Source: Blastomyces gilchristii SLH14081 (lineage: Eukaryota; Ascomycota; Eurotiomycetes; Onygenales; Ajellomycetaceae). From it: 64,000 bases of DNA. The position numbers were made by a program, and so were the translations under genes. Shown one piece after another: positions 11,015 to 54,462 of this stretch (its first letter is position 1; the number at the start of each line of letters is the position of its first letter). The notes beneath the pieces are model-generated. The model searched no databases. It was not told where the DNA came from and saw nothing but the letters and a program-made list of their open reading frames with translations. The DNA lies in the NCBI RefSeq assembly GCF_000003855.2, contig NW_003101668.1, forward strand, positions 871,068 through 935,067, read 5' to 3'.

Positions 11015-11644
11015 TTGTTTTGTATAGATGCAAATACTGATATATTTATTTTAATTTATGTAGAATCTTCATGTGTTGACAGATCTGCATCTGCTGATGA
11101 TCATGATCTCAATGTTGAATTATTAATTAAGAACTTGAGAGACATTATAATAAAGAAATTGCTTATATCATATATAACTGAGTCTTTCATATTTCTCTCT
11201 GTCTTCTCTGTTTCTTTCTCTGCTACTTCTTCTCAATCTTCTATACCTGCTTCTGTATCTGATTCTCTCACTTCTACTATTTCTGTTTCTGAGACTCTTA
11301 CTTCTACTACTTCTGCTTCTTCTGTCTCTGCTATCTCTCTGCTTTTATTATCAGCTCTCCCTGTTTTAAGAAGATATTATATAGACTTGATGAACTACAT
11401 TTCTTAGTATATATACTCTCACTCTTCTTACTGATCTCTAAAATGATTTATTATATGAAGACTGTGTATGACATGACTATCTAAAGCTTGATCACAGAGA
11501 CTGATTATTACATTTATTTTAAGTATTTATAATAAGATAATTATTTATTTATACTGAAGAATCACTTCTCTCTTTAACAGTATTAAGATTGTAAGTCTTT
11601 TCTTTTTTCATCTTTTCTTTCTGACACTGATTTTTCTGTTCTTA
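11015..11644 (+). pseudogene. Accessory antisense gene of Gypsy-2, exon 1 only (partial copy)
   Basis: Homologous to exon 1 of the genes at 12373-13865 and 53759-52267, with the same Asp-rich start, the segment SSCVDRSASADDHDLNVE, a Ser/Thr-rich linker and a shifted hydrophobic end. The exon ends at a good splice donor GTAAGT (11591). The intron then runs to TTCTTA, exactly where a new LTR starts at 11645, so exons 2 and 3 are missing. Frame damage includes a TAA where the others have TGA (ancestral Trp). Function unknown. See the 12373 entry. Confidence 0.7.
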
Positions 11645-12372: not shown

Positions 12373-13865
12373 ATGAACACAGATGCTGATATGTTTGTTT
12401 TTATTCACATAGAATTTTCATGTGTTGACAGATCTGTGTCTGCTAATGATAGTAAACTCAATGTTGAATCATTGATTGAGAACTTGAAGAATGTGATAAT
12501 AAAGAAATTGTCTGTATTATATGTGACTGAATCTCTTATATTTCTCTCTACTCTCTCTGTTTCTTTCTCTGCTGCTCTCTCTCAATCTTCTATATCTGTC
12601 TCTGTGTCTGATTCTCCTGCTTCTGCTACTCCTGTTCCTGCAACTCTCACTTCTGCTACTTCTGGTTTTATCATCTCTGCTTTTGTTATCAGCTCTCCTC
12701 ATTTCAAGAAGATGTTGTATAGACTTAATGAATCATATTTCTCAGTGTATATACTTCTGCTCTTCTTGCTGACTCTTAGAATAATTTATTATATAAAGAC
12801 TGTGTATAACATGACTATCTGAAGCTTGATCACAGACATCAATTATTACATTCATTTTAAATATTTATGATAAAACAATTATTTATTTATATCAGAGAAT
12901 CATCTCTCTCTTTAACAGTGTTAAGATTATAAGTCTTTTTCTTTTTCATCTTTTCTTTCTAATGCTGATTTTTCTGTTCTTAGGAAAAATTGTTATGAGT
13001 TTTACTGTGTACAAAGTCATAATATTCATAGATATTAAGAAGCTTTTTATAACTGTAAAGTTCAATATCACAGAGATATCTGCTCTAATGAATTTCTTTG
13101 AAATAATAAATCTGTATCAGTCTATTCTCTGATATTTATTATCTGACTTCATAATACAGATGAAGAATATCTGTGTTTTCAGAAATAAGAATATGAATAT
13201 TGTAGTTTTTTACACCTGTAAGTGTGAGACTTATACATCTTATCTGAGATGTTATTGTAAGAATGAGCTGTTTACACACTGTATTCTACTTTCTGTATTC
13301 TTTTATATTTCTCTCTCTCTTTCTGAGAAGTCTTATATGTGTTGTAATTATATATACAACTCTAAGATCAGCAGATGTTCATTTAATAACTGTTTTTATC
13401 TCTGATTTTGTAGTTTTCATACACTAATAATGATTCTTAGTTGCTCTGATGCCAGAGATTATTCTAATTAAAGATGATAACACTGCTGAGATCACTCTCT
13501 CTCATTCTTAAGCTTCTTCTATTGTTCTCTCTTTCTTTCCTGCAGAAAAGAATATATATATACTGAATTATAAGTATTCAGTTCTGAGTGACTCTCACTG
13601 TTATTTATCTGATTCTACACTCTCTTTCTCTTTCATTTCTTTCATCTTCACTCTCTCTGTTCTGGCTTCTGATTCTGTGAGTTCTGTACTCTTCTTCAAT
13701 TTTTCTATACACATGTGTACACATTTCTATATTGACATTTCAGTCAATCTTGTAATAAATAATATTAATGTTATACACACAGTGATAGAGAAATTAAAGA
13801 TATATACACTGTTATTACAAGAGCAGCTTACAGCTCTTGAATCTCTTACAGATCTCAAGTTTTAA
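12373..13865 (+). pseudogene. Accessory antisense gene of Gypsy-2 (three exons, about 460 aa), decayed copy
   Basis: Not gag or pol, and encoded on the strand opposite to pol, between pol and the 3' LTR. Exons 12373-12928, 12984-13385 and 13441-13865 total 1383 nt, exactly 461 codons. Both introns are 55 nt, end in TTCTTAG and have branch-like CTAAT. Here both donors read AT instead of GT, whereas the copy at 52267-53759 keeps GT. Predicted regions: acidic N-terminus; Ser/Thr-rich linker (residues about 60-115); hydrophobic segment (about 123-149); Cys-rich block (about 264-317, with CVF, CKC, LRCYC, CC, C); Ser-rich linker; helical tail VIEKLKIYTLLLQEQL near 430-455. Several TGA/TAA codons interrupt it. 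I do not recognise the family. A membrane segment or a zinc-binding domain would be inference only. Confidence 0.72.
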
Positions 13866-18400: not shown

Positions 18401-18404
18401 TTTT

Positions 18405-18515: not shown

Positions 18516-18589
18516 TCTGATCACATCTTCTGCCTTCATCTCTTTTTAACACTCACTGAAATCAATTATGTTATTTCTCTTCAAATATT

Positions 18590-22260: not shown

Positions 22261-22608
22261 AATGTATTTAGTTGTTTCATAAGTGTTATTAATAATCATT
22301 ATCAAATTCTGATTATATAAGCAATCACTGAATGAACTGAATAGAACTGAATTTAATATTCAGTCTCAGTCTTATTCTGATTTTGAAAGAATGATCATCT
22401 TTCACAGTTTATTCTGAGAAATTACTCTCATTTCACTGTTCTTGTATTAAACCTGGTCATTTTTCACATCATTTCTGTCAGAAATAGTTCATTTTCAGAT
22501 TCTTTTGATGCTTGATTCTGGTGAGACTCATGTCAAGAAATGTATGAGATCAGATTAAATGAAATCAAATGTGAAATTCATAATCCCGCCGGTCAGTCTA
22601 TCACTGAG

Positions 22609-27441: not shown

Positions 27442-28990
27442 ATGAGTTCAAGAGTATACTCAGTGAATGTGAAAAAAGATGTTTTTCCAGATGCTGTTCC
27501 TGAGATTGAAATTCTAAAGAGAAGAAAGAAGAAAGAAATAGAGAAATAACAAGTTCTTGAAATACAGAAACTGAAAAAAGCAAGCAAAATTCTTGAAAAA
27601 CAGTATCTGAGTGAGAAGAATGAAGAAGTTCTGTTAATTCTTCATACTCAGACTAGACAACTACAAGAAGTGATCAAGTTCAAACTTGAAATTTCAAACA
27701 CAATTCAAAAAACATTGAAATCTTTCAGTACAGTCACTGACTCTTTTTCATCTTCTACTTCTTCATCTTCTTCTTCAAATCAGAAGAAAATATATACTCA
27801 AGTAACAGAATCTGCTGTCTTCAAACCTGCTAGTTCAAAATCTGCTCAAAATTCTGAGAAAACTGAGAAGAATATTACTCAGATCTCTGTTCATAGAAAG
27901 AAAAAAAAAGAAATGCAAAAAGAGAAGAACTTTTAAATCTTCAGAAATAGAAGACTTATTCTCAAAATCTCAAATCAGAAGAGCTTACAAAAAAACAAGC
28001 TAAACTTAAATCTCATTTTCAGAATTAGAAATAAAATTAATCAGCAGTTCTTTTCTTAGTTAATAACTGATATTGAAGTTCAAAAATCATTCATAGCTTT
28101 ATTTGAGTCATCTTTCTTTGAAAATTCTATTATTTTGACTACAATGCCTGAATTCAGTGCAGAATTTCTCATTCAGAATAAGAATCTCTGAAAATCAGCA
28201 ATAGAATCTCTACTGAATACAATAATTCTATCTGAGAGAGATGAAAAGTGAGACAAATTCATTCTTCATGATATTTCAGTTGAAATTTTTGACTGTGAGA
28301 AAGAAATGCTGCTTCTTAAAAATGAATTAGAAGAATACAATTCTATTCAACTGAGAAAAGAGTCTGTATGACTTAATTCAATTGAGTTCAGACAGAGCAG
28401 AAGAAATGCCTCTGTTCTAGTATATATAAAAACACTTGAATAATCAAGAATCTCTGAAGTAAGAGTAGCAGGTTTGAAAATGAGAGTTCATAAATACAAA
28501 GACTTAAGAATGAATCTCAAAGCTCAAACACAGTGTTCAAACTGTCAAAGATATGAACACTTTATAATCTCTTATTTCAGAGACTCAAAATGTGCATTCT
28601 GTGCTAGAGATCACAAAACTAGTGAGTATAAATGTGAAACATGCTCAAAAAGAGATGAAATATGTCAATATACTCTACTTAAGTGCTTCAATTGCAAAGA
28701 AAAACATGCATCTAGCTCAAAAGAATGTATATTTACTTCAAGAACTCAGAAGAACTGAAGAAAAGATGAAGCTCAAAGTGAATCTAAAACTGAAGAGAAA
28801 AGTCAAGCTAGTAAATTCACAACTGTAAGCTTAAAAAGAAGAAACTCTCAACTATCTAGATCTTCAAACTTCAATTCTTCAGCTAAATATAAACAGAATT
28901 TGAATTCTCAAATATCTGTTAAGATTAGAGAATTGAGAAATGACTCTCATGATAAACTAGATAGAATGCAAGCTGTTGAGATTCCTGCTT
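27442..28990 (+). pseudogene. LINE ORF1 remnant (nucleic-acid-binding protein with zinc knuckles)
   Basis: Starts ATG at 27442 (MSSRVYSVNV). An early TAA replaces CAA. The N-terminal third is a charged helical region with a Ser-rich linker (27670-27936). After a frame change the C-terminal part at 28474-28758 carries three Cys/His knuckles: CSNC...H (last Cys now Tyr), CAFCARDHKTSEYKC, and CFNCKEKHASSSKEC. This arrangement is typical of ORF1/gag-like proteins of Tad-type LINEs, which bind the element RNA. The frame is broken by stops and at least one indel. Confidence 0.82.
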
Positions 28991-29060
28991 TTTAAAATAG
29001 TTATAATCTACTATCTGATGATAGTGATTAGATTCTACTATATCTTCACTCTCTTTTAGA

Positions 29061-32000
29061 ATGAATATACAACAAAAATAATAAAAAAAGTTTAAAAACT
29101 CTTCAAAAATCACATTTATTTAAAACAATATGAATAGAAACTCAAATTGCATTTATTCTTATCTTCAGATTATATTTGAATAAAAAGTTGACTTTGTACT
29201 TCTTCAAGAATCAAACTTTGATACTGAGTAAAAGTACATCATTTCTCATTCAAGCTATTACTGCTTTCTTTCTGAAAAATCTGAGATAAAATCAAGAGTA
29301 GCAATCTATGAGAGAAAAAGATCAAGATATTAATTTAATCTGAGATTTGATATCATATCTGACTCTGATATTCTAGTGAGTGACATTATAGATAAAGATA
29401 ATGAGTTTAATACTATTTAACTTATAAATATCTATAATGAAAAATCATTAAAAGAAAACAACAATATCTGAACAATTGATAGAGGATTTTTGAATATACT
29501 CTGTAAAAACTCTCTATAATTGCAGAAGACTTCAATGCACATCATCTCTGATAGAACTCAGAGTGCACAAGAGTAGTAAGAGCAGATAAACTGATTGAAT
29601 GAACTTTTGAGCATTCAATAGATTTAGTTAACAAGTCTGATCAACAAACATTCTTTAGAAAAGACATGAAACAGAAATCTATTATAGATCTAACTTTCAT
29701 GTCACAAAATCTAATTGAAAAAAGACTTATAAACTGATTTATTAATTCAAATGAAACCTCAGAATCAGATCATGAGATCATTCAATTTAATATTAAACTG
29801 AGTGAAAAACAAAGAAGTGAAAATCCTCTTCTCTTTAATCAATATAACTTTGAAAAAGCTGATTGAAAAGCAGTTGAAGAAAGAGTAAAACAGCTGAAAT
29901 CTGAAAGACAGAGTAAGCTCTATTGAAATCAAAGTCAAGATATCTCAAATGAAATACTTAAAAATAGAGTAAAGTTGATTACATCTATTCTTCTAACAAG
30001 TATTGAAGAAAATATTTCAAAGAAAAAGTCTTCTGAGTATTTCAAATCTTGATGAAATGAGAATATCACTTCTAAAAGAAAGCAATTAGTCACTACTAAA
30101 AGAGATTGAAAGAATCACTTAATATCTGATGAAAAGTTCAAAGCTATTTAAAATGAATATTTTTCAGATATTAAAAAAGCTAAAACAGATTACTGAAACA
30201 AATTTCTTAAAGAAGTATAAGAAAAAGAAGTTTTTAAAGTCTTCAACTATACTAAAACAAGAAGTGTAGCAAAGCTTTCACCCTTAGAATATGAATTTCA
30301 GAATGAATTATATACAGTAAACTCTTGTAAGGAAAAATATCAAGCTTTTATAAGAATTCTCTTTCAAAACTTATCACATTTAGAAGAGAAGAATATGTCA
30401 TTTCATGAATATATTGATGAAAATAACTGAGAATGATCTGAGCTTATATATGATGAACTAGAGTCAGTAATATTCTCAAGTTCAATTAAAACTGCTGCAG
30501 GGCCTGATTCAATTAATCACTCAATTATTCAAAACACATATTCCTACTTGAAGAATGAATATTTTGAGCTCTTTTTCACTCTCTTAAAAAATGATTATTA
30601 TTCTAAATGCTGGAGAGAAGCAACTGAAGTAATCCTTATAAAATCTAATAGAAAGACTTCAATTTCTAAGTCATATAGAGTAATATCTCTGTTGAACTGT
30701 TTAGAAAAAATTCTAGAAAAGATAATAGCTACTAGATTATCTTTTATAAGCTCTATTAGTGATTCTCTTCTATTTAATGAATAAATAAGAGATAGAAAAC
30801 AATGTTCTGTAATTAATACTGTTCTCTCAGTTATTCATGATATTCAAGTAGCAAAGCATGAAGGCCTGGTCTCAACTGCAGTTTTTATTGATATAAAAGA
30901 TGCATTTGATCATGTTTCAAAGTCTAAGATGATTCAAACTTTAAAGATGTTAAAACTGTCACTTTCTCTAATAAAATGAGTTAATTATTTCATATCTAAA
31001 AGAATTATACAACTATTCTTTGATGGAAGAAAACAAGATAAAACTGAGATAAAAATAGAAGTATCACAAGAATCTTCAATCTCATCTGTTTTATTTGCAA
31101 TATACCCTGCATATCTATTCAAGAATAGAGAGATGAAAATAGTGAGATCTTCAAGTTATATAGATGATATTAGTCTACTCTACAGTTCAAAGACAATCAA
31201 AGAGAATTTAGAAGTAATTGAGAAAGTAGTAAAGAAAATCTTTGTTAGAGCAGATATCAATCTAATTCAATTTAATATGAATAAAACTGAGCTAATTCAC
31301 TTTTTTCTCAGGTTTAATGAGAAAGAACTAAGTCTAACTCTTTTAAATAAAGAGATTAAACTCAGTTTGAATGTCAAATAACTAGAAGTATAGTTAAACT
31401 TCAAGTTGAATTTTAAATATCATATTCAACAAAGAATTATCAAGACAGAGAGACTACTGAATAGTATAATCAGACTATCAAATACTGAGAGAGGTCTATT
31501 CTTTCAGGCTATGAGATAGTTATACATAGTCTGTATTATCTCAGTAGCTGATTATGAAGTTCAAGTTTGATGAAATAATCAAGAAAACTTCACTGAACTC
31601 TTTCAAACTCTATAAAACAGAGCTTTGAGAAGAATTCTGAGAGTATTCAAGTCATCTTCTATTAAAACAATAGAAATTGAAGCTTCAATTTCATCTTCTG
31701 CTATTCAATTTGAAAAGGCCTGTATAAACTATACTCTGAGAGTCATGAAGATGAGCTCAAATCATATAATCAGAGAAAGAGTTTCTTCTTCATTTTCATC
31801 AGTTAACTCAGGAAATGAACTGAATTAAAATAGATTTCTTGATTGAAATGAGAATAATGCTTTAAAGAAAATGCTCTCTCAACTGTATAGACTATGTTCA
31901 CTTATTAAGAATCAATTTTCTTTATTAAATATTGAGAAAATTGATCATGAGAAGATATCTCTCTGAAGAGAAAAGCTTTAATCTCTCATAGACTTATAAA

Positions 32001-33004
32001 TAAGTGAACTATCTAAAGAGAGAGAATATGAACAGCATTTGAAGAAGATCTCTACAATTAATATAAAAGACTCTATTCTGATTTACTCAGGTGACTTAAA
32101 AAATGAGAATTTGAATAGATTAGTCACAGACATTGCTTATACTGAAGATAACATTAATTTTATCTCAGATTTCTGGAATTTAGGCTGTGAATCTGAAGTC
32201 TTTGATGCTGAACTATTTGTAATAGTGAAAGATTTCAAACTCATTGAAATAAAATCTCATAAAAGAGGAAATGATTTGAAAGAGATATGAATATTCTCTG
32301 ATAGTCAAGCTGCTTTAAAAAGACTTAGAAATAGTCAGATTCATAATGATCAAATGAATCTTGAACTGATTTTAAACTCTGTTTTGAAAATTCAAAAGAG
32401 AAGAACATCAAAACTGATAATTCATCTGCATTGAGTTCCTGCTCATATGAATATTCATGACAATGAATTGGCTGATTCAGCTGCAAAAAAGGGTTCAGAA
32501 TTAAGCAGATCTATTCAAAAAACAGTGTTCTGATCTTTCATAAAGAGAAAGATAAAAGAATCTTGTTTAAACAAGTGAAATGAAAGCTGGCAGAAACAAA
32601 AGAAGAGTATACATTATTCAAGATTTGAGATAAAATCAAAGTGAAAATCTTGTTTAATTAAATGTAAAAAGAAAATATTCTCATCTATAATTCAGCTGAA
32701 ACTAGGACATGGTTATTTCAAATCCTATATATAAAGATTTGATGATAGATTTGATTCAACAGAGTGCTCATTCTGCAATGTGAATGAAAATTCTGAGTAT
32801 ATTGTAATGCATTGTGCATTATACAATAGTCTCAGAGTCAGATTAAAGAAGAAGTATAATTTAAATCAATTAAATATGAGATTCTTATTCTCAACTGAGA
32901 CAGGAACTAAATACTTAATAGACTTTCTATCAGAAACTAGAGCAGCTACAAGAAAATGACTGAATTCAGAAGTATCTGAATATGAAGAGATGGAAATTGA
33001 TTAG
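29061..33004 (+). pseudogene. LINE ORF2 remnant: endonuclease, reverse transcriptase, RNase H, zinc finger
   Basis: ATG at 29061, TAG at 33002. The interval is not a multiple of three, so at least one frameshift is present. Endonuclease: VDFVLLQE near 29190, AEDFNAHHL near 29522 (family GDFN.HH..W, Gly changed to Glu), SDHEIIQF near 29767 with the catalytic His kept. RT: TAAGPDSIN near 30490, YRVISLLNCL near 30674, DIKDAFDH near 30890, QESSISSVLF near 31070, YIDDI at 31157-31171 with both Asp intact. RNase H: near 32070-32500, with DAELFVI, FSDSQAALKRL and NELADSAAKKG. The tail has CSFC...HC near 32770. Nearly every expected Trp is TGA, one TAG. Confidence 0.9.
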
Positions 33005-33376
33005 ATATAGTCTGTTAAAACAGCTATATATCATCTTTTAATAATTTTATTTTGTTATAGTCTCTCTTTACTGTACTTGTTTCCTTCTGTTCTTTTCTCT
33101 ATCTATTTAATGTGTCTATCTTTAAGACTATGTTCTCTTTTCTTTTGTCATAATATTTTCAAATGATTTCAAAGTATTAGAAGGTGTTGAAATACTGCAA
33201 TTTGTAAACAGTTTTTGTATTCTGAGCTGGAATTTTCTGATTTTGCATATTTGAAATTAATAAATGTATAATAGTTGACTCTATAGATATAGGAAAAACT
33301 CTGAGAACTAAAGATTCTCAGGTAGATGTCATAGTCTCTGACTGCATACATCTATAATTGAAGAATAATAATAATA
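33005..33376 (+). other. LINE copy 2 3' untranslated region and (TAA)n tail
   Basis: Matches 2494-2876. It ends ...GAAGAATAATAATAATAA directly before the target duplication. The last 40-50 bp resemble the SINE tail. Confidence 0.85.
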
Positions 33377-33551
33377 ACAGGTGTTGAGACCACGCCAAGA
33401 GAACAAGAACATAGGAAAATACAAAGAAGTGACAATTAGATACATGCGATAATAACTTCCCACCTCAGAAACATAGAGTGATTCATTGAAGTGATTTGTA
33501 CACCTCTGTATTTATTAGAAACCTGAGGTGCTTGAGTTCCGGATTTAATGT

Positions 33552-33640
33552 ATCCTCTGCGGGTTTCGAACCCACGCGCCTTGGTTTCCCACACCAAGGC
33601 GCTACCGGGTGGCCGCATTAACTATTCGGCCACCGGGGCT
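33552..33640 (-). ncRNA. tRNA-like head of SINE copy 1 with Pol III boxes
   Basis: On the minus strand: an A-box-like TGGCCGAATAGTTAATGCG (33632-33614) and a B-box GGTTCGAAACC (33572-33562). Three hairpins can be drawn: GGTGGCCG/CGGCCACC, GCGCCTTGGT/ACCAAGGCGC with loop GTGGGAA (anticodon position GGG), and a T-arm GTGGG/CCCGC-like stem with TTCGAAA. There is no matching acceptor stem, so this is a SINE head and not a working tRNA gene. Confidence 0.75.
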
Positions 33641-35728: not shown

Positions 35729-37676
35729 CTTTGTACTAAATGTAATAATTATTTGTATTATAGATATAATACTCTCTGCTTCTTTAAAGAGAAGAATTAA
35801 TAGTTACAGAGAAATTAAATATTATGAATATTAAGAATATAAGTGTAAGTTTTCTTTATTTTTCTCTTATTAATCTTTAAATTGTGTTCATAACTCTGTT
35901 TTTATTTTTCTTTATTTTTAACTTTAATAATAATATAATTTCTGTTTCTCTTTATATATACTGTGAACTATTCATCTCAGTAGAAACTTATTATCTTTAT
36001 AGACTAGAATTTATAAATAACAGTGTTAATATCTTTATTATAATTAGATTCTTAGTGAAAACTATATTATTCTGACTTATTAGAATTTATAGTATAAAAG
36101 TTATATCTTAGCTTTCACAGATATCTTATCTATCTGAATAATTCTTAAGTGAACTTATTTATCTTATTAGAATACTTTTATCACTAAATCTTGAATTAAA
36201 GCTTATAATCTTACTTCTCTGAGTTAATAATCTTTTTAATCTAATATTCTTTTTCACTTTTTAATACTTTATAAACAGAGTGATGAGTTACAGAGTTTTC
36301 TTCTAAGAATTTCTTATATTCACAGAGTAAAGAGATATAAAAAATATTTTTTATCTGTAACTCAGATAAGAGCTCTAATCTATAGAACTACAAGCTAACT
36401 TTCTTCACAATCTTATAAAACTCTATTTATAAGAGATTCAGCTTCTTATTAAATCTCTGTATAATAACATTTTTCAGATTTAGTCAGACTCTATTAGCTT
36501 TCTCAAAACTTTTTATAATATATTTAGAGTTATAGTATCTCTTCTGATACTCTTAAGTCTTTCTCAAGAATTCACAGACTTTTTTCTGAATATTCTGAAT
36601 TCTCTCAGTCTATTCACAGATATTATCACACTCTATAGTATACTCTCACAGATTTATTAAGATTATCTATAAGTAAGTCTTAATAAGTATCTTAAAGAAG
36701 GTTTTATCTGTACTAATATACTTTAAGTTATTATAGATAAACTCTGTAAGTAATAATTAATACACTCAGTTATTCTAATTATAATTGATAAAGTACTGCA
36801 GATACTACTTTAATATACTTATCAGATATTCTATCTGATTATCTATCTATTAATAAAGAACTGTACTTAGATCTTATAAGATCTTCAGTATAATTATTAG
36901 ATTAGATTAGAACTCTCTTATAAAGATTAATTCTCTATCTGAGATAATATTTATAGATAACTTATATAACTGAATCATATTATAGATAAAAATATAAGTT
37001 AAATTCTTTAACTTTAAGTTTTTATAAGTGAGTATAAAGTGTGTTATCTTAATAAAGTAATCTACTATCATCAGCATACTGTTAAAACAGATATTATATA
37101 TACTCTTACTTTTAGAAAGACTTATAAGAATATTTATTTCTAGCTATTTTTAAGATTCTTATAGAATAAGTAGAGAAGTAAGTTCTTTATATAATCTGAA
37201 TCATACTACTTATAAATTTAAATAAATAGTATAAGAATTCACTATCTTTCTCACAAGCTCTTGTATCTTCAGTTAGAAGTATTTTCTTATAAGTAACTTA
37301 TAAGTTTTAATATCTATAAAATAATCTGCTAAAGAAGAGTTATAATATCTTTTAATAAGTTCTATATATAGAAACTTATTCATAGATATATAAATTTAGT
37401 TCTCTTTTTATAAGAGACTATTTAAATCTCTTTAACTCTTTATTTCTGCAGAATTAATCTCTATTATAAGTAGTTTCTGAATATACTGAGTATATTTATT
37501 CTTTAGTTACAGTTCTGATAATCTGAATAGAAGATCTTATAAAGACTTATACTCTGTTTTCTCTTATATAAGTCTTTTATAGTACTTCTTAAAGTCTGTA
37601 AATTCTTCAGATTATAGATACTCTCTTCAAGAATCTTTATAAAGATTTTTAAAGTGTTAACTCTTAGTATTATAAA
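35729..37676 (-). pseudogene. Gypsy-4 integrase C-terminal half and chromodomain
   Basis: Minus-strand remnant. Near 36860-36680 the integrase core reads DNQIEYLISILK...LLLTEFIYNNLKYISTDKTFF, the segment around the catalytic Glu in gypsy integrases. Then come FYKIVKKVSL and ELQIKNIFYISLLCEY near 36400-36320. A chromodomain-like block EKEY*IKKIINSEK*DYKL...YSNKINKFT*ELF lies near 36250-36130. Trp codons are TGA or TAA. The upstream half of integrase lies on the other side of the hAT insertion, at 59584 and beyond. From 36100 down to 35729 nothing is readable. Confidence 0.8.
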
Positions 37677-38018
37677 TAGACTGCCCGGCGGGACCATGAA
37701 TTTCACATTTGGTCCCATTTGATCTGGTCTCATACATTTCTTGACGTGAGTCTCACCAGAATCAAGCCTCAAAAAAATCTGAAAATGGATCATTTCTGAG
37801 AGAAATGACATGAAAAATGATCAGATTTAATTCAAGAACAGTGAAATGAGAGTAATTTCTCAGAATAAACTGTGAAAGATGATCATTCTTTCAAAATCAG
37901 AATGAAACTGAGACTGAAGATCAAAATCAGTCTCATTCAGTTCATTCAGTGATTGCTTATATAATCAGAATTTGATAATGATTATTGATAATACTCATGA
38001 AATAACTAAATACATTCT

Positions 38019-38419
38019 TATACAAGTTTATTCTTCACTTTCTCATGAAAATTATACTTCTCTGATATACTGTGATCAGAGATATTAAACTATCTGATAA
38101 TTTCATGTTTTATAATTATGAGTTTCTTGATTATTTCTTCTTGTAATTGTCTCTGATAATAGTGATAAATATCTTGACTTGAGTTGAACTTTCACTCCAT
38201 TCTCACCTCTGTCAATGAAATTGTCAGAATATCATATATCATCAGTGTAACAGTTGAATATATACTCTCAATAATTTTTCATAACTCTAGAATTGATTTG
38301 ATGCATAAATTTGTCAGATTATCTTGAAGATAGCAGTCAAATTCAGTTTTATAAGTATATAGTTTTATCTGATTTTTAGTTGTAATTAATGTATACAAGT
38401 TCTATTTCAAAGTTAGTAT
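38019..38419 (-). pseudogene. hAT transposase remnant (copy 2), C-terminal part
   Basis: Reverse-complement homologue of about 21860-22260, holding the dimerisation region (LTI... and LIIIKHEI-like blocks). It is separated from the rest of the gene by the Gypsy-2 insertion, with the break at GTAT (38416-38419 and 54463-54466). Confidence 0.75.
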
Positions 38420-38593
38420 TGTGGTTCGGAAGAACGTACGACCGTTGAATAATAACGCGGCCGCTTCCGAACTTGCTTACGAGTGTAAAGGGGGGCATAG
38501 CGGCCACTAATTAATTTAGCATATGATATTACAATATATAAGAAGCCGGCATACATCTGTAATTGTACACTGACAAGCAATCTTTGAATCACA
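38420..38593 (+). repeat. Gypsy-2 (forward copy) 5' LTR
   Basis: 174 bp. The outer part keeps many CpG sites (TGTGGTTCGGAAGAACGTAC, GCGGCCGC), whereas its inner part is mutated, the reverse of the 3' LTR. The next bases TCTGATAG are shared with the reverse copy and do not form a TGG primer-binding site. Confidence 0.95.
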
Positions 38594-40479: not shown

Positions 40480-43400
40480 TTGAGTAAGAATTGAGAGATG
40501 ACTGTAAAAGTGTTAGTGAATACAGAAGCTTCTATATAATATATTAATGATTATATAATCTGAAGACTGAAAGAGATCTGCTGAGTGAAGAATCTCTGAT
40601 GTATAAGATTATCTAATAACTAATATTTGATATCATCTGTAAGAGTAAGAGTTCTCTTGCACTTCAGAGAATGATCTTACTATATTTGAGTGTAAGAGCT
40701 GCAGAATGTGAAATACAATCTTATTCTCAGACTCAATTGATTTCAAAGATTCAATCTGCAGATTCAATAGTGTACATATCATATACAGTTGACTGATAGA
40801 AAGAAAACAGTTCATACAATTCTATCAACTGATATGAGAAGAACATTTCACATCTCTGATATAGAAGAATTAAATCTACTTATACATTAATAAGTAAAGA
40901 GAATGATTCACAAGACCTTATCTGAAAGCATTCTGTATGTTATACAGAACCTGAAAGCAGAGGAAATCAAGATAAAAGATATGCAGAAGGACAAGTATAT
41001 GAAGAAGCTTCTGAAGAAGCATGAGAAGGTCTTTTAAACAGATCTTTCACTGAAATTGCCACTGAAATGAGGATTCATACATGAGATTGACACAGGGGAT
41101 GCAAAACCAGTCAATCAGAATGTGTATTCTCTGTCACAAATGCATCTTAAAGAACAGAAGTGTCAGATCACAGACCTTCTAGAACATGATCTCATACAAT
41201 TCTCATCAAGCACATGAGGCTTTCCAGTTCTATTCATGAAAAAGATAGATAAGAAGTGATGAATATGTATCAATTATTAAGCACTTAATAAGCTTATGAT
41301 CAAGAATGAATATTCATTATCATGAATTCAACAATAGTTGAATACAGTGAAAAACACCTGATATCTATCAAAGATTGATCTTCTCTCAGAATACTGACAG
41401 ATCTGTGTAGACAAACTGTCAGTTTCATGAACTGTATTTAATATACAATGAAGAAAGTTTGAATTCCTGGTAATATTATTCAGTCTGATAAATGTGTCTG
41501 TTATCTTTCAAACAATGATAAATACAATTCTTCATAAACAGAATGAAACCTCATGCCTTATATATCTCAATGACATTCTAGTCTTTTCAAACTTATATAA
41601 TGAATATCTGAAGTATCTTGATAAAGTGTTTATAACTCTGACAGAGCATAAGCTCTATATCAAATCAATAAAGTGTGTATTTGAAACAGAAGAGTTAAAG
41701 TTTATAGAACATGTAGTAAGTGATAACTGTATACATCTCATCTCAGAGAAATTGAATGTCATAGTAAATTAGTCACAGCTGAGAAACATGCATCATGTAT
41801 AACAGTTTCTTGAGTTAATCTCATATTACTGTAGATTTATCAAGAATTTCACATGAATATCTGCATCACTCTCAGATCTCTTAAGAGAAATAGATGCAAA
41901 TCTGTGAAAGAAGAAGTTTCATTCAATTATCTGAAATACTGTGTGTAAAGAGACTTTTCTCACACTGAGAGAACATGTAACAACATTCTCAGTGCTTATT
42001 TAATCAGATTGTGATAAACCTTTCTACATTGAGATGAACACATTCAAATGAGCTATCAGAGGCACTCTTCTACAGATGAGTAAGAATGACAAGCTGTATC
42101 TGATGACATATAATGATAGAAAACTATCAGATGCTGAGCTCAATTACTCAGTGTATGAAAAGAAATTGCTAGTAATTAAGCACATGCTGATGTTATAGAA
42201 TAAATATATCAATAACAGGTATACAATAACAGTGATTATGAATCATAAAAGCCTTGTCTATCTATAATTAATAATAAAACCTTTTAAACACTTAGTATGT
42301 TGAATCTCAGAGTTCTAAGTGTACAATCTTCATATTAAATACTGAAAGAGATCAGACACTGTGATACCTGATGTAATCAGTCACAGACTCAATTTCATGA
42401 GTGAGGATTCTGTGAACTAGATATAAGAAACATTCATATTAAACATGCTGAGAGAATGCAAGAAATCAAAATGAGTAAATGTCATGATCTCTTACTTGAA
42501 GAATGACAAGATGTCAGATAACAAGTATTTCATGAGAGTAGTAGAAGAGATGCTTCTGAACTTCAAGCTGAGAAAATTGAAAAATGATATTATGCTTTAT
42601 TATAATCTAGAATACATAGAAGCTCTCTATCTAGAATCTTCATTTAGATGTGACTTGATGACTCACATGCACAAGAAATTCAGTCACTTAGAAAGCTCTG
42701 AACTCATGAGTGTACTCAAATCAAGAGTATACTAGTCAAGCATGATCAAGAACATTCAGACATATGCTTACAAGTGCCTGAATTGCCAGGTTGTGAAAGA
42801 ATCTAAGAAAGGGTTAGAATGTGAGAAAGTGTAATATCAGATAAAGTGTATAATACAACTGTTCAAATGATGAGAGATGAATCTCATAGGCATATTACTG
42901 CAGATGTCAAATGAAAATTGATGAATAATTACTACTATTAATTACACTACTGACTGATCAGTCATGAAAGCAGTTTCAGAGATGATAGAGAAGATGTTGA
43001 TGAAGTTTCTATATAATAAGTTCTATATTAACTATGAAATGCTGTATGAGATTCTAACTGATAATAGTGTGAATCTCATAGAAGAAGTAGTGAGGCATTT
43101 CATGAGTCAGTTACAGACAAGATATTATAGAACAACATCATATTATTCACAGATGAATGAGAAGATGAAACACTTGAATGAAATCTTGAGCAATATGCTG
43201 ATAAAATATCTAGTGAACAAGTCTATGAGACTATGAAAATGAATATCTCAGGCAGGCACTACTGATCACACAGATTCAATAGCATACAGTCTTCAAGCAT
43301 TCATCATTCTATCTGTTGTATGAATTGCATCCGCACATCTCAGAGAATGCTTTGAAAAAGGTGAGGGAGAAAACAGTTGTGAATGCAACAGTCACAGATG

Positions 43401-43653
43401 CAGCAGAAACAGCAGTTATGAATACAGTAGTAGCAGTTGTGAACACAACAGTTGCAGACACAGAATCAAGATTGAAAGAGATCAGTCACATATATATAAA
43501 AGCTAACAAGTTACTTCTGAATCAAGCAATTCAATTAAGAAGAATACAAGACTCACTAGTTAAGAAATTGAGTCTCAAGATGAGAATATGAGTTGTTATA
43601 TACAATGAGAGTTCTGAGAAGTTTCAATCTAGATGATTTGAGCTATATAAAAT
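40480..43653 (+). pseudogene. Gypsy-2 (forward copy) pol: protease, RT, RNase H, integrase
   Basis: Protease: VLVNTEAS near 40505 (family DTGAS; Asp to Asn, Gly to Glu). RT: from about 41050, with FPVLFMKK near 41222 and YLNDILVFS near 41563 (first catalytic Asp lost). RNase H: 42000-42300, with KLSDAELNYSVYEKKLLVIKH. Integrase: HKKFSH near 42670 and CLNC near 42776 for the zinc-binding part, TDNSVNL near 43058 around the second catalytic Asp, then YSQMNEKMKHLNEIL near 43145 around the Glu. The frame at 43316-43591 is the linker that follows. Gypsy-3 entered after 43653, and the last codons are at 51398-51479. Confidence 0.9.
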
Positions 43654-44191
43654 TGTAACGTGGCGGAACCGAAGCGGTGGCTAGCCGGTGGCGACACGTA
43701 GAGGTAGTTGTTTGAGAAGCTGTATGAGTGAGCTTGACTATCTTGCTTGAATAGCGAGCTCATAGGCTACAGGGTTATTGCAAGGATATCACAGATATGG
43801 TACTTAGTATACTAAGAAGATTGTATGAGGCATGCAGTAACTCTTGTGTATATTATTCCTGTAGAAGAAAAAGATGAATTGCTGGCTTCTTGAATGAGAA
43901 GCCAGCATCTAGCTATTCTATATAGACAATGAGCAGATACCCTTCTCTCATTTCACAAGTGAGAATAGCTGAAGTGATACCTCAGCGGCATCTCATTACC
44001 AAGGAAGAGTAATCTGCTGACCTTGTATAGAAGCGGGGTTCTCATATCCATCAATCAGATCTTTCTATGATATATCTGAATGATGTCATAGAGTGGTTGA
44101 AAACTGGTTCAGACAGGATGAAATCATTCACATGAAAGTGATGAGCCATGTGAAACTGCAATGAGGCCTTGACATGATCAGAAGTGTGACA
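43654..44191 (-). repeat. Gypsy-3 3' LTR
   Basis: 538 bp. The outer (left) end is unmutated (TGTAACGTGGCGGAACCGAA); the inner (right) end is mutated. The adjacent inner bases read AAAGAGAAGAGCAT on the minus strand, a purine-rich tract next to the LTR. Confidence 0.95.
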
Positions 44192-44691
44192 ATGCTCTTC
44201 TCTTTAAGAGCATAGTCTCTATGTTCTCAAGATTACTGAATTAGGAATTATCTTTGTTATATAGTAACAGTTGTTAACTGATTAGCAGTGTATGTGTTGT
44301 GTATGATATAAAGAAATAGATGAGTTTTTCTGCTGACTGTATAGGTCTTTCTTTTCTCATCTTCATTCAAACCAAACATGTGATAAGTGAGTTTCTTATA
44401 TATCAATTTGAAATATGAAAAATATAGTTAATAAGTGACTTGCAGATCTCTCAATATATTCCATTCTATGTATGAAATTCCCTGCAAAAGTGATGTGTTT
44501 TAGAGACAAAGCTAACAGTAGTGGCAGGATTTTTCTGAAAAGATCCCCCCCTCCCTGTGACACATTTTTCTCCCCCCCTTCCATCTGCAATAGTGAGTGC
44601 ATGGGAGCATCATTCTTGGGAGACAATAAGGGGCTTATTCTGATGTTTTCTAGTGAATAATAAATGTCTTCATGGTGCGGCTGCGGCCTCC
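44192..44691 (+). other. Gypsy-3 region between 3' LTR and accessory gene, with C-runs
   Basis: Possible upstream (promoter) region of the accessory gene. It contains two C7 tracts at 44544-44580 (G-runs on the element sense strand). The frame at 44472-44660 has no recognised motif and overlaps these runs. I do not call it a gene. Confidence 0.5.
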
Positions 44692-45603
44692 ATGACTGTC
44701 AAGAAAGCCAGATTAAAGGCAGTGATGTCAATGAGCTGCGGGAGCCCCGCTCCCATTGCCACACCTCCTCCTGCTTCTCTTGCAGCCGCGGCGGTTCTGC
44801 TGGTCAGTGCATCTCCTGCCCCCCCCGCCACTGTTGCGACGCCGCCCCCCCCCCCAGTCAATACAGTGGTGTATGACCCTGTGTGATCATTTGAAGAGGA
44901 ACCTGGGAAGAGCTTGGTTTCAGGGACAGTGGCTCCAAGGAGCCCAATCTGTAGTTTCCCTCCCACACACCCGAGCCCTGCTCAGGATGCTGCTGGGTTG
45001 GGTCCGCAGGGTCCCGCGGTTCCTTTGCCTTCTCTCTGTGAGAAGGCTCTGATACAGCCTCTGGCCAGCACTGCCACTTGCCTGCACTGTGTCAAGCAGC
45101 TGAAGGAGAGAGGGATTCTGTGCACTCATTCCTTCTCTCACTTCTGTTGTTTCTGTTGTACTCATAACAATGACTCCTGTCTCTCTGTAAGTATTACCTA
45201 CTCTACAAGAAGGCATTGTGTCAGCTCTGACAAGGAGTCCAGATGCTCAAGCAGTACAGAGCAAGGATCTCAGAGCTTCAAGCATTGATAGATTCTGTCA
45301 AGGCTGAAGAGATCCCCCTTGCTTATCTGCAAAAGAAGATGAAAGCATGAATCTCTGAGATGAAAAAACATCTCAGAATAACTGGTCTCAAGAAGAGATC
45401 AGTCAGCACTGCTGTTGAAAGTATCATAAAGATCAATCACTGATTGAAGAGAATCTCACTTCAACTGAAGCAGATGACTGAGATGCTTTGTAAGTTAATA
45501 AGTTGATATTTTATGCATTTCTCATGCTCTTCTGCAGCATCACAGTGCTAACTTCTCAGCAGACAAAGATATCAGTGTCAGAGACTTCAATGATGAAGAA
45601 TGA
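44692..45603 (+). pseudogene. Accessory antisense gene of Gypsy-3 (three exons, 261 aa)
   Basis: ATG at 44692 (MTVKKARLKAVMS). Exons 44692-45186, 45243-45489 and 45560-45603 total 786 nt, exactly 262 codons with stop. Intron 1 (56 nt) has GTAAGT, branch CTGAC and CAG. Intron 2 (70 nt) has GTAAGT, branch TGCTAAC and CAG. Removing intron 1 also removes a TGA. Three internal TGA codons remain (44884, two in exon 2). The protein starts Ala/Pro-rich, then has a Cys cluster at about residues 130-163 (CLHC-X10-C, CCFCC-X6-C), then in exon 2 a heptad-like helical region (LKQYRARISELQALIDSV). The layout resembles the Gypsy-2 accessory gene. Function unknown; zinc binding is inference from the cysteines. 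Confidence 0.7.
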
Positions 45604-45975
45604 GTTTGATGAGAGTGTGATTATTGATGAGTAGACTCTGAGATTCTCTCTTTTTACTTTTTCAGCAGACTGCAGTCTCACTAGAATAGCAGCAGTTCAT
45701 GAGTTGATTAATATTAATCTTTTTTGTTGATTTCAAATATCTCTTTTCTCTAATCACTTCAGGAATTTTACACTTGTGTAGTCTCATTAAACTTCTAAAA
45801 ATTCTTTGAAAGAAAATAGAAGAAGAGTGCTACAGAGTCTATAAGACATCAGCTCATCACTGTGAGATCATCTCTAAAAAATCCTTTGAAAAAAATAAGA
45901 AGTCTCAAGCAGTATTTCTTGTTCAATGTCTCTGACATGTAATAAGATAATCTCTACTAGCTGTCTTATAGCTTG
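45604..45975. other. Gypsy-3 spacer between accessory gene and pol
   Basis: About 370 bp of moderately decayed sequence between the convergent ends of the accessory gene (plus) and pol (minus). No motif was seen. Confidence 0.5.
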
Positions 45976-45979
45976 CAAT

Positions 45980-48900
45980 CTCTTTCTCAGCATTTTTCAA
46001 ATACTTAAGTGATTCTCATGAATTCTCTGATAATGAATAATCTTCTCATTTAATGAGATATTAAAGCTTGCTGTAATATATTTACTTATTCAATATTTTC
46101 TTCACAAGATATTCAGTATCACTCTCAATCTCTATATCATTCAGTCAAGACAGCTCTGCTTCAGAGTATTGCTTATAGAGCTTTAAATAGAAAATGTGAA
46201 AAATAGAATGAATTGATTTCAATTCTGTGAGTAATTTTAACTCATATACCTGCTTATCTATCACTCTTGTTACTGAGAAAGATTCTAGTCACTACTCACT
46301 GAGCTTTTTACACAGTCTTGTTATCTTGATGTTCTTTGCTGAAAGTAGCACTTGATTCTCTATTAAGAACTTTATCAGAAGATGTTTTCAATTATAATAT
46401 TCTATCTACTGCTTCTGAGTATGATGAATGCTTTTCACTGTCTTCTCATGAATTTTGTTCAAAAGTTCCAATCTCACTTTTACTTCTGATACTGAGAAAT
46501 ACTTCATTCTCTGTATCTATCTGACATTCTGACTGTCTATCCCTCTCTTTGAAATATTGTCTGCAATGTCACTGAGTAATGAAGAATTATATTCATAATA
46601 AGTATAGAAAGAAGATATCTTTAAGATTGCATTCTTTGCATTATTATATATGACTTCAGTGATCAGAAGATGTTTAAGCTAATCATTCTGATAATATGAA
46701 TAGAATGCTTAAAGATACTGTTCTAGTGTTTGATTCTGATATTCAGTCTGGTCATTGATCTGTGAATGAAATGCAGTACTGAGAAGACATCTTATTATAA
46801 GATAATAGTAAAAAGCTGACTAGTATTTACTGATAAAGAGGAATTCTTGATCTGTTATCAACAATTTCAGAGTACTGTGATCATGAATAATAATATTTAA
46901 AAACAGGTCAGTCAATTCAGAAGCTTTAATCTTTTTATAAGTAGAGATATATCTGATCATCTTTATAAAGTAGTTAACAATGATCAAAATTGAGTCATAT
47001 TCTTTGACTCTTGTTAACTTCAGCAGGTTAACTATGAAATTCATCAATAGATTCTGTCATGAGCTCTTTGAAACAGGCAGTGATGTCAACTTGCTGTATT
47101 ACTTATACTATGAGATCTTTATTCTTTGATAGACATTGTAAGTTTCAATATACTCTTTGACATCTGTTCAGAGCTTGTCTTAAATATATTTATATTTTAG
47201 AAGCTTCTCAGTCTTCTCTAACCTGAAGTGCCCTGTATGGGGATTATTATAATGAATTCTCAATAACTCCTGGCACACTGCCCTGCTATGAGGAATGAAG
47301 ACTGAATCATTCAGTAGTAGAAGTTCATATTCTTCTAGTTATCAGTGACTTGATTTCTTAGCAGCACTGCCCTGCTCAGAGCCTGTCTCTTTCAAGTTTA
47401 AACTGAATTCTTTCTTCTTTAACTTTTGAATTTGAGCTGTAGTAGAGATGTCCCCCTTCTGTAACTTATCAATGAATTTTAAAAGTAGTCAGATTAAAAG
47501 GTTGTAGACTGTTTTATTCTTTGTCAATTCAATAATTGTAAGATGTGACATAAGAAGCTCATGATCTTCAGTGTCAGTTCTCTGTGAGAACTCAAGTTCT
47601 CTTTCACCTTCTATACTGAGTCATGCAGCTGTCTCTCCAGCGTCATTTCTGAGCTTTAGAGAACCTTAATCCCCTGCAGTCAGCTTCTTCTGCAGTGATA
47701 ACAGAGATTCTTTTATAGAATTCTTCTTCATATCAATGATATTATAATCAGGCTGTTTAGACAGTGTATCAGTGAGGTTAAGCTGACCTGAATGATATCA
47801 GATATAGAAATCATACTCTGAAAGCAGCTTTACTCATCTGACTTGATGTTCTATTAAGCTCTTTGTTATCAAGAAGTAATGCAGATTTGCATGATCAGTG
47901 AGAACTTGCACTGAGTACTTACTACTCTGAAGATAATGTTATCAGATCTTAAAGAATTCAACAATTACTAACATCTTCTGATCATGAGTATCATACCTTC
48001 TCTGTATGAGTGATAACTTCTTGAAGAAGAAGGTCACTGATCTTCATTCATAATGTCTTATAGACTCTGTGAAAAAGTCTTCTTTCATAGACAATTCATT
48101 ATCTGTTTTCTCAGAGATGATTATTCTCTGATTCTTTCAACATTGAAAGGCCTCTGATGTCAACTGTGAAAAGATTTCACAGATCTCATTTCTGAATGCA
48201 TCAGTCTCACACTGACTGAGTAAGTCAGAGTTAAAATGATTCAGTATCATAGTATCTGTGAAAGCTTGTTTCAATTCTGTAAATACCTGCACAGTGTCTT
48301 GAGTGAGAATAAACAGTTCTGTTTTTCTGTCTTTCACACTTCTCTTTAACAGATCTGTAAGAAGGGCAGTAATCTGTGAATATGTATAGATGAATTATCT
48401 GTAGAAATTCACAAATTCTAGAAACATCTGTATCTTGTGATATATCTGTGATATCAGCCAGTTCTCAATAGTGAAGACTCAGCTTCTGTTCATTGAAATG
48501 TCATTCATCTCAATAATATAATCTAAGAAATCAATCTTCTGTATGTAGAATGAGCATTTTTCAGTGTTTGTATAGAGTTAATACTGTCTCAAGTGACTCA
48601 ATACTTCTTGAACATGAATATCATATTCTTTCTCTGATTTTGAGAAGATTAAAATGTTATTCAGATATACTATGCAGAAGACATTGACAAGGCTCTGCAG
48701 TGTCTCATTTATATAGATCTGAAAGATGACTGAAGTATTATAAAGATTAAAAGATAAAACAAGATATTTAAAATTGCTGTACTTGATATAAAAAGTCATT
48801 TTTCAAATGTTATCTTTGTTAACTCTGATTCTATAATAGACATTCTGTATATCAATCTTTGAGAATATCTTTACTTCAGATAATCAATTGATCATCTCAT

Positions 48901-50797: not shown

Positions 50798-50854
50798 ATC
50801 AGTCTATTAGAGCTTGACTGATTCAAATGTGTAATCAGATAGAGTGATTTGAAT

Positions 50855-51392
50855 TGTAATGTGATGAAACCAAAGCAGTGACTAGCTGGTGATGATATGT
50901 AGAGATAGTTGTTTAAGAAGCTGTATAAGTAGGCTTGACTATCTTGCTTGAATAGCGAGCTTGTAGGCTACAGGGTTATTGTGAGGATATCACAGATATG
51001 ATACTTAGTATACTAAGAAGATTGTATAAGGCATGCAGTAACTCTTGTGTATATTATTCCTGTAGAAGAAAAAGACAAATCACTGACTTCTTGAATGAGG
51101 AGCCAGCATCTAGCTATTCTATATAGACAATGAATGGATACCCTTCTCTCATTCCACAAGTGAGAATAGTCAGAGTGATACCTCAGCAGCGCCTCATTGC
51201 CAAGAAAGAGTAATCTGCTGACCTTGTATAGAAGCAGGGTTCTCATATTCATCAATCAGATCTTTCTATGATATATCTGAATGATGTCATAGAGTGGTTG
51301 GAAACCGGTTCAGATGGGATGAAATCATCCGCATGAAAGCAATGAGCCGTGTAGAACCGCAACGGGGCCTTGGCGCGGCCGGGAGCGTGACA
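50855..51392 (-). repeat. Gypsy-3 5' LTR
   Basis: 538 bp. The outer (right) end is unmutated (CGCGGCCGGGAGCGTGACA); the inner (left) end is mutated (TGTAATGTGATGAAACCAAA). The first internal bases on the minus strand (ATTCAAATCACTC) are not a TGG-type primer-binding site. Confidence 0.95.
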
Positions 51393-52266: not shown

Positions 52267-53759
52267 TCAAAACTTGAGATCTGTAAGAAATTCAAGGACT
52301 GCAAGCTGCTCTCATAATAATATCATACACATCTTCAATTTCTCTACTACTCTGTATATGACATTAATATCATTTATTGTGAGATTGGCTGAAATGTTAA
52401 TATAGAAATGTGCATGCATATACATAGAGAAATTGAAGAAGAGCATGAGACCTGCAGGACCAGAAGCCAGGACAGGGAAGACAGAGATGAAAGAAACAGA
52501 AGAAGAAGAAGACACAGAACTGAATGAATGACAGTAGAAGTTACTCAGAGCTGAACACTTACAATCTGATGTGTACACAACCTTCTTCATAGAAGAGAGA
52601 GAGAAAGTGATAGAAGAAGCTTGAGAGCAGAAGAGAATAGTCTCAGCAGTGTTATCATCTTTGATTAGAATGATCTCTGACACTGAAGCAACTAAGAATC
52701 ATTATTAGTGTATGAAAATCATAAAATCAGAGATAAGAATAGTTACTGAATAAACATTCACTGATCTTAGAGTTATACATATAATTACAACATATACAAG
52801 GCTTCTCAGAAAGAGAGAGAGAGACATGAGAAAATGCAGGAAGCAGAACACAGTGTATGAACAGCTCATTTTCATAATGATATTTCAGACAAGATGTATA
52901 AGTCTCATGTCTGCAGATGTAAAAGAGTATAATATCTATGTTTCTGTTTCTGAAAACACAGATATCTTTTACCTGCATCATGAAGTTGAATGACAGATGT
53001 CAGAGAATAGACTGATACAGATCTATCATTCTGAAGGAATTTATCAGAGTGAATATCTCTGCAATGTTAAACTTTATAATTGTAAAAAGCTTCTTGATAT
53101 CTGTAAATATCATGACTTCATACACAGTAAAACTTATAATGATTTTCTCTAAGAACAGAAAAATCAGCATCAGAAAGAAAAGATGAAAAAGAAAAAAACT
53201 TACAATCTCAATACTATTGAGAAGAGAGATGATTCTTCAGTATGAATGAATGATTATCTTATCACAAATATTTAAAATAAATATAATAATCAGTGTCTGT
53301 GACTGAGCTTCAGATAGTCATGTTATATACAGTTTTCATATAATAAATCATTCTGAGAGTCAGTAAGAAGAGTAGAAGTGTATATACTGAGAAATATGAT
53401 TCATTAAGTCTATACAACATCTTCTTGAAACAGAGAGAGCTAATAACAAAAGCAGAGACAGTAAAACCAGAAGTAGTAGAAGTGAGAATCACAGGAACAG
53501 AGATAGCAGGAGCAGAAGAACCAGATACAGAGATAAGTGTAGAAGATTGAGAAGCAGCAAAGAAAGAAGTAACAGAAGAGATAAGAGAGAATGTGAGAGA
53601 CTCAGTTATATATAACACAGATAATTCCTTTATTATCATATTCTTCAAGTTCTCAATTAATGATTCAATATTGAGTTCACTATCATCAGCAGATGTGAAT
53701 TTGTCAATATATGAAGATTCTATGTGAATAAAAACAAACATATCAGCATCTGTGTCCAT
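52267..53759 (-). pseudogene. Accessory antisense gene of Gypsy-2 (forward copy), best preserved
   Basis: Start ATG at 53759 (MDTDADMFVFIHIES). Exon 1 runs to about 53203, exon 2 is 53148-52747, exon 3 is 52691-52267. Introns of about 54 nt (53202-53149) and 55 nt (52746-52692) both have GT donors (GTAAGT, GTAACT), CTGAT or CTAAT branch sequences and TTCTTAG acceptors. After splicing the frame continues from CLFS into ASVSEIILIKDD. Only a few stops remain: TGA at 53310 and some more before the end of exon 1, one TGA near the end of exon 2, one TGA at 52312. Cys block, hydrophobic segment and helical tail are as in the 12373 copy. It is antisense to pol and sits directly before the 3' LTR. The role is not known. 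Confidence 0.75.
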
Positions 53760-54288
53760 GTAAAATCATGTCAGAAAACACAATCAGAAACTCACTGAGA
53801 AGAAAAAACAGTTGAGAGTGTATAAGAAAGATGAAGAAGATGTGTCATTCATGATAATACATTCTAGTAATTATTTAGAAGATAAACAAGTTCTGATCAT
53901 ATTTCACAATATATTATACTTACTGCTAACAAACTGCTCAGTATGAGCACTACAATGATACTTGTTATGAGAACAGAGAATCATTGTCAGAAATATGTAC
54001 AATGTGATAGATGAACAGATAGAAAGAGTTGAACAGAAGAAGAAGTAGAAATCTTGAATGATAATAATATTCAATAATAATGATGATGAAGAAGATGATT
54101 GAAGAATGAGAAAAGTTGATGAATAAGAGATGTAATATAGTGAAAGTTTCTTTGTGAGAGCATACACAGAATACTAGCTGAATCAGGAATAGGTTACAAG
54201 ATTGCAAACACTAGTAGTGTACTAATTCACATGAAGCTAGAATGAATGTCATAGTCATGTGAGCGTGACTGAATCTGGTGAGGAAGGA
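53760..54288 (-). promoter_or_regulatory. Region between accessory gene start and Gypsy-2 3' LTR
   Basis: About 530 bp that would hold the promoter and leader of the antisense gene, conserved in three copies (10484-11014, 11841-12372 and here). A pyrimidine-rich stretch ending TTCTTCTCAG just upstream of the start could be an intron end in the leader. The bases next to the LTR read GTGAGGAAGGA on the plus strand and serve as the polypurine tract. Frames 53904-54207 are not supported as genes. Confidence 0.5.
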
Positions 54289-54462
54289 TGTAGTTCAGAA
54301 GAACATACAACTGTCAGATAATAACACAGCCGCTTCTGAACTTGCTTACAAGTGTAAAGAGGGGCATAGCAGCCACTAATTAATTTAGCGTACGATATTA
54401 CAATATATAAGAAGCCGGTGTACGCCTGTAATCGTACGCTGGTAAGCAACCTTTGAATCACA
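54289..54462 (+). repeat. Gypsy-2 (forward copy) 3' LTR
   Basis: 174 bp, partner of 38420-38593. Its outer end keeps CGTACGCTGGTAAGCAACCT where the inner end of the 5' LTR reads TGTACACTGACAAGCAATCT. Confidence 0.95.

Follow-up and report, generated by a model that had tools for sequence, protein, structure and literature searches.

A spliced antisense gene with a DUF3716 domain in a Ty3/Gypsy retrotransposon family of Blastomyces gilchristii

The carrier element and its antisense gene

The window analysed here, a stretch of 64,000 nucleotides from Blastomyces gilchristii SLH14081 (C15:871068-935067), contains an LTR retrotransposon of the Ty3/Gypsy type, about 8.2 kb in length and with LTRs of 174–175 nt, that carries a spliced gene between pol and the 3' LTR (Table 1). 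The gene extends from 53759 to 52267 on the minus strand and is thus antisense to the reverse transcriptase piece at 41452–41769 on the plus strand. Both full copies of the gene in the window, named after their starts at 53759 and 12373, consist of three exons and two 55-nt introns and amount to 461 codons including the stop. The spliced frame contains 8 internal stops in each of these copies, which therefore code no protein as they stand, and the stops are attributed to RIP-like C-to-T decay.

The assignment to Ty3/Gypsy is based on the LTRs, which begin with TG and end with CA at both 38420–38593 and 54289–54462, and on the order of the pol domains in another copy of the family elsewhere in the genome (L085), whose minus strand carries RVT_1 (53.3 bits), RNase H (37.6 bits) and rve (16 bits, below the cut-off of 32.6) in that order. 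This is the sense-strand succession of reverse transcriptase, RNase H and integrase typical of the group. The integrase-like piece of the window at 42958–43233 gave no rve match in the Pfam scan, and the RIP-damaged stretch L085:340-588 at the integrase end, where elements of the chromovirus clade have a chromodomain, gave no Pfam match.

An earlier note on this DNA had described a gene of about 460 aa antisense between pol and the 3' LTR and had worked out the three exons, two 55-nt introns and 461 codons for the copy at 12373; this plan stands, and the 53759 copy follows it as well. The same note counted three homologous copies, of which those at 53759 and 12373 are full and the one at 11015 is truncated at 11644, retaining exon 1 and most of intron 1. 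Of the junctions it gave, 52746/52692 for intron 2 is retained; for the other, 53202/53149, the donor was off by one and intron 1 extends from 53203 to 53149. It was silent on the closed state of exon 1, where in the 53759 copy a 149-aa open reading frame ends at 53310, and on the internal stops of the full copies.

Table 1. Features of the carrier element and of the antisense gene copies in the window
Feature	Position	Strand	Remarks
5' LTR of the carrier element	38420..38593	+	174 nt, TG...CA; 86% identity (149/174) to 54289-54462
pol reverse transcriptase piece (sense)	41452..41769	+	Pfam RVT_1 35.3 bits, cut-off 29.6
Integrase-like pol piece	42958..43233	+	Within the stretch aligned to L085:592-900 (rve 16 bits, below cut-off)
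3' LTR of the carrier element	54289..54462	+	TG...CA; pairs with 38420-38593
Leader from the ATG to the 3' LTR; presumed site of the antisense promoter	53760..54288	-	Placed by position
Exon 1	53204..53759	-	Frame and indel analysis; RIP-damaged here, in-frame stops from 53310 on; open except for one stop in L082
Intron 1, 55 nt, GTAAGT...TTCTTAG	53149..53203	-	Non-3n length change in 14/78 copies
Exon 2, 402 nt	52747..53148	-	Length constant in 78/78 copies
DUF3716 Cys-rich domain	52748..52930	-	Place mapped from L082
Intron 2, 55 nt, GTAACT...CTAAT...TTCTTAG	52692..52746	-	Non-3n length change in 15/78 copies
Exon 3 including the stop codon	52267..52691	-	Frame and indel analysis
C-terminal segment, homologous to that of the host-like DUF3716 gene	52270..52410	-	Place mapped from L082
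Second full copy	12373..13865	+	Exons 12373-12928, 12984-13385, 13441-13865
Third copy, exon 1 and most of intron 1	11015..11644	+	Truncated by an LTR starting at 11645

The carrier element is split by about 7.7 kb of other DNA between 43653 and 51393. This insert contains direct repeats (43651–43950 and 50852–51151, 89% identity) and a GC-richer patch at 44001–46000 (41%). Another repeat has two copies in the window, one at 16802–22601, inserted within the pol of the 12373 element, and one at 37676–38419 and from 54463 onward, which was the target of the jump of the 53759 element and shows GTAT at both edges. The open reading frames at 1–3400 and 27550–33640, with RT-like pieces, a Cys-rich first frame and parts that occur twice at 94% identity, presumably represent a non-LTR retrotransposon. 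An open reading frame beside the Gypsy copy at L085:6619-6900 (minus strand) resembles the terminal RNase H part of a Copia element.

Copies across the genome, decay and selection

Searches of the 74.8 Mb genome returned 846 first-look candidates for pol; for the gene, whole or by exon, they numbered 775 to 846, and the family is thus far larger than the three copies previously seen in the window. Among the best 40 of the 846 pol places, at least 30 had a match to the gene at a distance of 2.7–3.3 kb, each on the opposite strand, the nearby matches being picked by eye; for the other 10 none was found at that distance among the gene matches listed, which is not proof of absence. A gene copy at C3:80930-81487 (minus) lies 2.2 kb from one of these 10 places, the pol at C3:83695-85183 (minus), and on the same strand, and probably belongs to a neighbouring element or reflects a rearrangement.

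For comparison of copies 80 loci (L001–L080) were collected: the 40 best matches at the DNA level, and 40 taken from high in the list of exon 1 protein matches, the latter choice favouring an open exon 1. L001 is the window's own 53759 copy. Three loci that did not span the gene (L042, L055 and L061) were set aside, and the remaining 77 were aligned together with the 12373 copy, giving 78 copies. One further, less decayed copy (L082; C7:2384000-2386500, GC 46%), elsewhere in the same genome, was treated outside this set.

The differences among 41 of the copies are overwhelmingly transitions (8843, against 168 transversions, or 98%) with a bias to CpA and TpG: an A follows at 170 of 371 C/T columns and a T precedes at 217 of the 339 G/A columns that have a preceding base. 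We take this pattern to be the product of repeat-induced point mutation (RIP), a process that distorts the dating of elements by their LTRs. None of the spliced reads of the 47 copies that are in frame by length is free of internal stops, each having 5 to 11. L082 retains far more of the gene. Its spliced frame spans 461 codons with 1 internal stop; the two shifted frames have 15 and 24, and in 2000 first-order random sequences the mean was 17.7 stops and the lowest count 7. An open reading frame at 239–796 in this copy reads through the sites of three stops that almost all decayed copies have, and L082 itself is the sole stop-free one among the exon 1 matches listed (at least 150). Its introns of 54 and 55 nt have GT...AG borders and contain CTGAC and CTAAC, which we assume to be the branch motifs. 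The rest of its element is more decayed than the gene: the pol strand of L085 has no open reading frame of 110 aa or more, and in a comparison with the window copy the directional differences lean more strongly to one side in the gene than in pol. Along C7:2383543-2391780 (L082, L085 and L086) RIP decay is lighter at the gene end than in gag-pol and changes along a gradient, with no sharp edge.

Length changes in the 78 copies fall differently inside and outside the exons. The frame was kept by length in 47 copies, whose spliced reads were used further, the other 31 being left out, and both introns were present in all 78. Copies with changes by multiples of three and by other lengths numbered 40 and 1 in the body of exon 1, 0 and 0 in exon 2, and 22 and 4 in exon 3; the corresponding numbers were 2 and 14 in intron 1, 4 and 15 in intron 2, 9 and 54 in the leader, and 9 and 40 downstream. 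The exons without their first 28 nt thus had 62 copy-level changes in multiples of three versus 5 others, and the introns and flanks 24 versus 123. Counted as distinct length classes, the ratio was 10:4 in these exons versus 9:25 in introns and flanks (Fisher p 0.008). The first 28 nt of exon 1 depart from this pattern: 3 copies are changed by multiples of three and 26 by other lengths. Of the 26, 20 have a one-base slip in a T run; in five copies a later ATG is in frame after the loss of two bases. The start codon is therefore uncertain or lost in many copies. When this stretch is included, the exons count 65:31 against 24:123 and the classes 12:7 against 9:25 (p 0.018).

A dN/dS ratio from all differences was dropped, and the analogous test was restricted to transversions, because 98% of the differences among the 41 copies were transitions. 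As the copies are related, columns were counted instead of copies. Transversions shared by at least two copies (28 columns) were distributed over the codon positions as 7/3/18; 14 of the 28 were synonymous and the omega-like ratio was 0.24. For private transversions, seen in one copy (95 columns), the distribution was 40/26/29, 17 of 95 were synonymous and the ratio was 1.09 (shared versus private, Fisher p 0.001). In the shifted frames the shared transversions gave ratios of 0.94 and 2.49, and the third-position share was 9/16, 5/6 and 4/6 in exons 1, 2 and 3, respectively. The test is small, with 28 columns drawn from related copies. Shared transversions presumably for the most part predate insertion. 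Together, the exon length changes biased to multiples of three and the third-position bias of shared transversions show that purifying selection acted on the gene while the family was moving, before insertion of the individual copies.

These results bear on several expectations of the earlier note. It had named a dN/dS of about 1 and loss of the frame in other family members as signs against a functional gene; the shared transversions gave a ratio well below this value and the private ones a ratio close to it, and beyond the first 28 nt changes that break the frame were few. It had also asked for support of the splice junctions in related copies, and the frame-breaking length changes in introns next to an exon 2 of constant length, with canonical signals in L082, support these splice sites. 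Its proposal of an accessory gene kept by selection within the family is supported by the low ratio and the exon length changes.

Two other gene models were considered and rejected. Two separate genes, the first ending with the 149-aa frame at 53310, do not agree with the absence of the three stops from L082 or with the length and codon signals that cross them. A third intron in exon 1 that would bypass the stops is unneeded in L082, and inspection by eye gave no GT...AG pair suitable in length, phase and branch site.

The DUF3716 domain and a host-like relative

The encoded protein of about 460 residues, which the earlier note had not recognised, consists of an N-terminal part that includes an S/T/P-rich region, variable in length, a Cys-rich DUF3716 domain (PF12511) and a C-terminal tail resembling that of a host DUF3716 protein. 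Against a cut-off of 22 bits, exon 2 of L082 scored 32.5 and the spliced read of L066 26.4, and that of L026 fell below it with 16.7, so that two of the three scanned copies pass. Pfam scans of the window pieces 13133–13402 and 12830–13129 gave no DUF3716 match, and those of single window reading frames of the antisense gene returned only names below their cut-offs. In exon 1 of L082 there was a weak match to DEC-1_N (17.4 bits, cut-off 29.2). A PDB sequence search for a solved relative gave 0 matches. The domain lies in frame 1 of exon 2; frame 0, which has a protein-like look, had been considered and was rejected on this account and on that of the shared transversions, which favour frame 1. 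By its Pfam name, DUF3716 is a domain without known function.

A genome-wide search with the family gave at least 38 matches at E ≤0.001 when 150 of 189 candidates were scored; 14 control genomes gave none. The top match, at 56.6 bits, was a locus with an ordinary GC content of 49% (L081), whose protein, according to an exon model that we made by reading, scores 52.9 bits for DUF3716 and, in a search of the genome that gave 9 candidates, matched nothing but its own two exons at E 0.01. The proteins of L082 and L081 align from before the domain to the C-terminus with 52 of 227 columns identical (single-pair E 5e-9), and the tail aligns by itself (pair E 8e-6). In a phmmer comparison the real L081 protein scored 32.1 bits, above all 3000 of 3000 shuffles, the best of which reached 10.5. 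In the decayed copies the signal of this relationship is weaker: the best blastp E of the 47 reads against L081 was 3.6e-4, and in a profile built from them L081 and its pieces came ahead of 2000 shuffled sequences (first of 2003), but with poor E values of 0.57 for the tail and 1.3 for the whole. Both genes have a phase 1 intron after the domain; by reading, its distance from the last cysteine of the domain is greater in L081, and it is similar, not identical, in the two.

A second, divergent DUF3716 gene group is represented by L083:1148-1663 (C7:2212150) and L084:673-1425 (C13:769399). It has 40 matches in the genome, 37 with internal stops and some next to repeat fragments, and may belong to another mobile element. 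When the domain pieces of L082, L081 and L083 were compared with each other, the residues C, C, G, G, F, C, C, S and C were invariant, in the pattern CxxC ... CxxC ... C with G-x-G-x-F that marks the family.

Origin of the gene and comparison with known systems

The structure of the gene, its frame, the past purifying selection, the domain and the homology to a host-like gene are direct results of the analysis. We consider it probable that a Ty3/Gypsy element captured a host-type DUF3716 gene in antisense and kept it as an accessory gene. An ancestral element would have taken up the host gene with its introns, and the antisense gene would be transcribed from a promoter of its own in the leader or the 3' LTR, the transcript being spliced on the antisense strand. 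The introns would then persist because new copies are made from sense RNA, in which they cannot be spliced. It is established logic that introns in antisense outlast reverse transcription of the sense RNA, and the protective effect of orientation suggested in the earlier note fits the presence of both introns in all aligned copies. Capture from the host, which had likewise been proposed, gains support from the homology to L081, with host to element as the presumed direction of transfer. More speculatively, the product may be a Zn-binding, coiled-coil and probably nuclear accessory protein, with a role in trans in the element's expression, integration or silencing; a nuclear, Zn-binding and dimerising role is a guess from the cysteine pattern and the look of the tail. 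A broader proposal, that retroelements took up host DUF3716 genes repeatedly and that the antisense protein counters genome defence or steers integration in trans, appears to us quite improbable; if true, it would help to explain a family of several hundred copies, and the host DUF3716 genes would be parts of a pathway that is copied or mimicked.

The brtn gene of the element Boty is reportedly the subject of Zhao et al. 2011. Boty is a Gypsy element of Botrytis cinerea and brtn is its antisense gene (PMC7264820, section 5; PMC8365987). The gene studied here could be brtn or its direct orthologue, and would then already have been described. The shared position and orientation in a fungal Gypsy element argue for such identity (PMC7264820, section 5; PMC8365987), whereas the main text of PMC8365987 has 0 occurrences of "duf3716" and the passages on brtn mention no introns in it; we regard the identity as doubtful, with a real chance of being correct.

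The reverse direction of transfer, in which the gene is an ancient component of the element and the host-like DUF3716 gene a domesticated copy, is in our view unlikely. The element gene and L081 are homologous, our analyses leave the direction unpolarised, and DUF3716 is also found in other RIP-decayed repeats of this genome, all of which would agree with domestication. Against it, L081 has a normal GC content, is single, and differs in its N-terminus and, by reading, in the places of its introns; the antisense gene of the C7 copy is also GC-richer than its pol, which lesser decay could partly explain.

A host gene or other element might also have inserted a single time into a founder copy and travelled with the family as functionless cargo, and such captures are known (PMC7264820, section 6). 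The signature of selection before insertion and the retention of the gene at no fewer than 30 of the best 40 pol places make a mere passenger very unlikely. That the antisense transcript works as RNA, as a source of dsRNA or small RNA limiting or tuning the element with the frame as passenger, is possible for antisense genes in general (PMC7264820, section 8) and is highly improbable here in view of the codon-position bias of shared transversions, exon indels mostly in multiples of three and a conserved protein domain.

Capture of a host-type gene remains our preferred reading, and antisense genes at this position are themselves already known, as brtn of Boty, gene23 of Grande and the gene of Retand. 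Antisense extra genes are frequent in the LTR retrotransposons of plants, and their origin is stated as unknown because no relatives outside transposons have been found (PMC7264820, section 6; PMC11963269). What the present case adds is a host relative, introns that make sense on the antisense strand only, and measured selection. The origin by capture becomes testable with a gene tree, and DUF3716 gains a biological setting.

Boty with brtn is similar as a fungal Gypsy element in which the extra gene lies antisense between pol and the 3' LTR (PMC7264820, section 5; PMC8365987). Maize Grande with gene23, rice RIRE2 and Phaseolus PvRetro13 share the position, the orientation and the presence in most copies (PMC7264820, section 5), and gene23 is nuclear (PMC7264820, section 7). 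According to sections 6 and 7 of the same review, no clear similarity to other proteins has been described for the plant antisense reading frames, and relatives outside transposable elements are lacking; the gene described here, in contrast, has a curated domain and a host-like relative. TRP28 of Retand, thought to bind DNA, resembles it as an antisense domain protein that is kept across a lineage and for which a regulatory role has been proposed, but is said to have no similar sequences outside transposable elements, and the word "intron" is absent from that text (PMC11963269). With DUF3716 proteins the product shares the Cys-rich domain, which passes the cut-off in two of the three copies scanned, and a C-terminus colinear with that of L081. 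Unlike them, it is encoded in antisense inside a retrotransposon of many copies, and its N-terminal part is long and S/T/P-rich.
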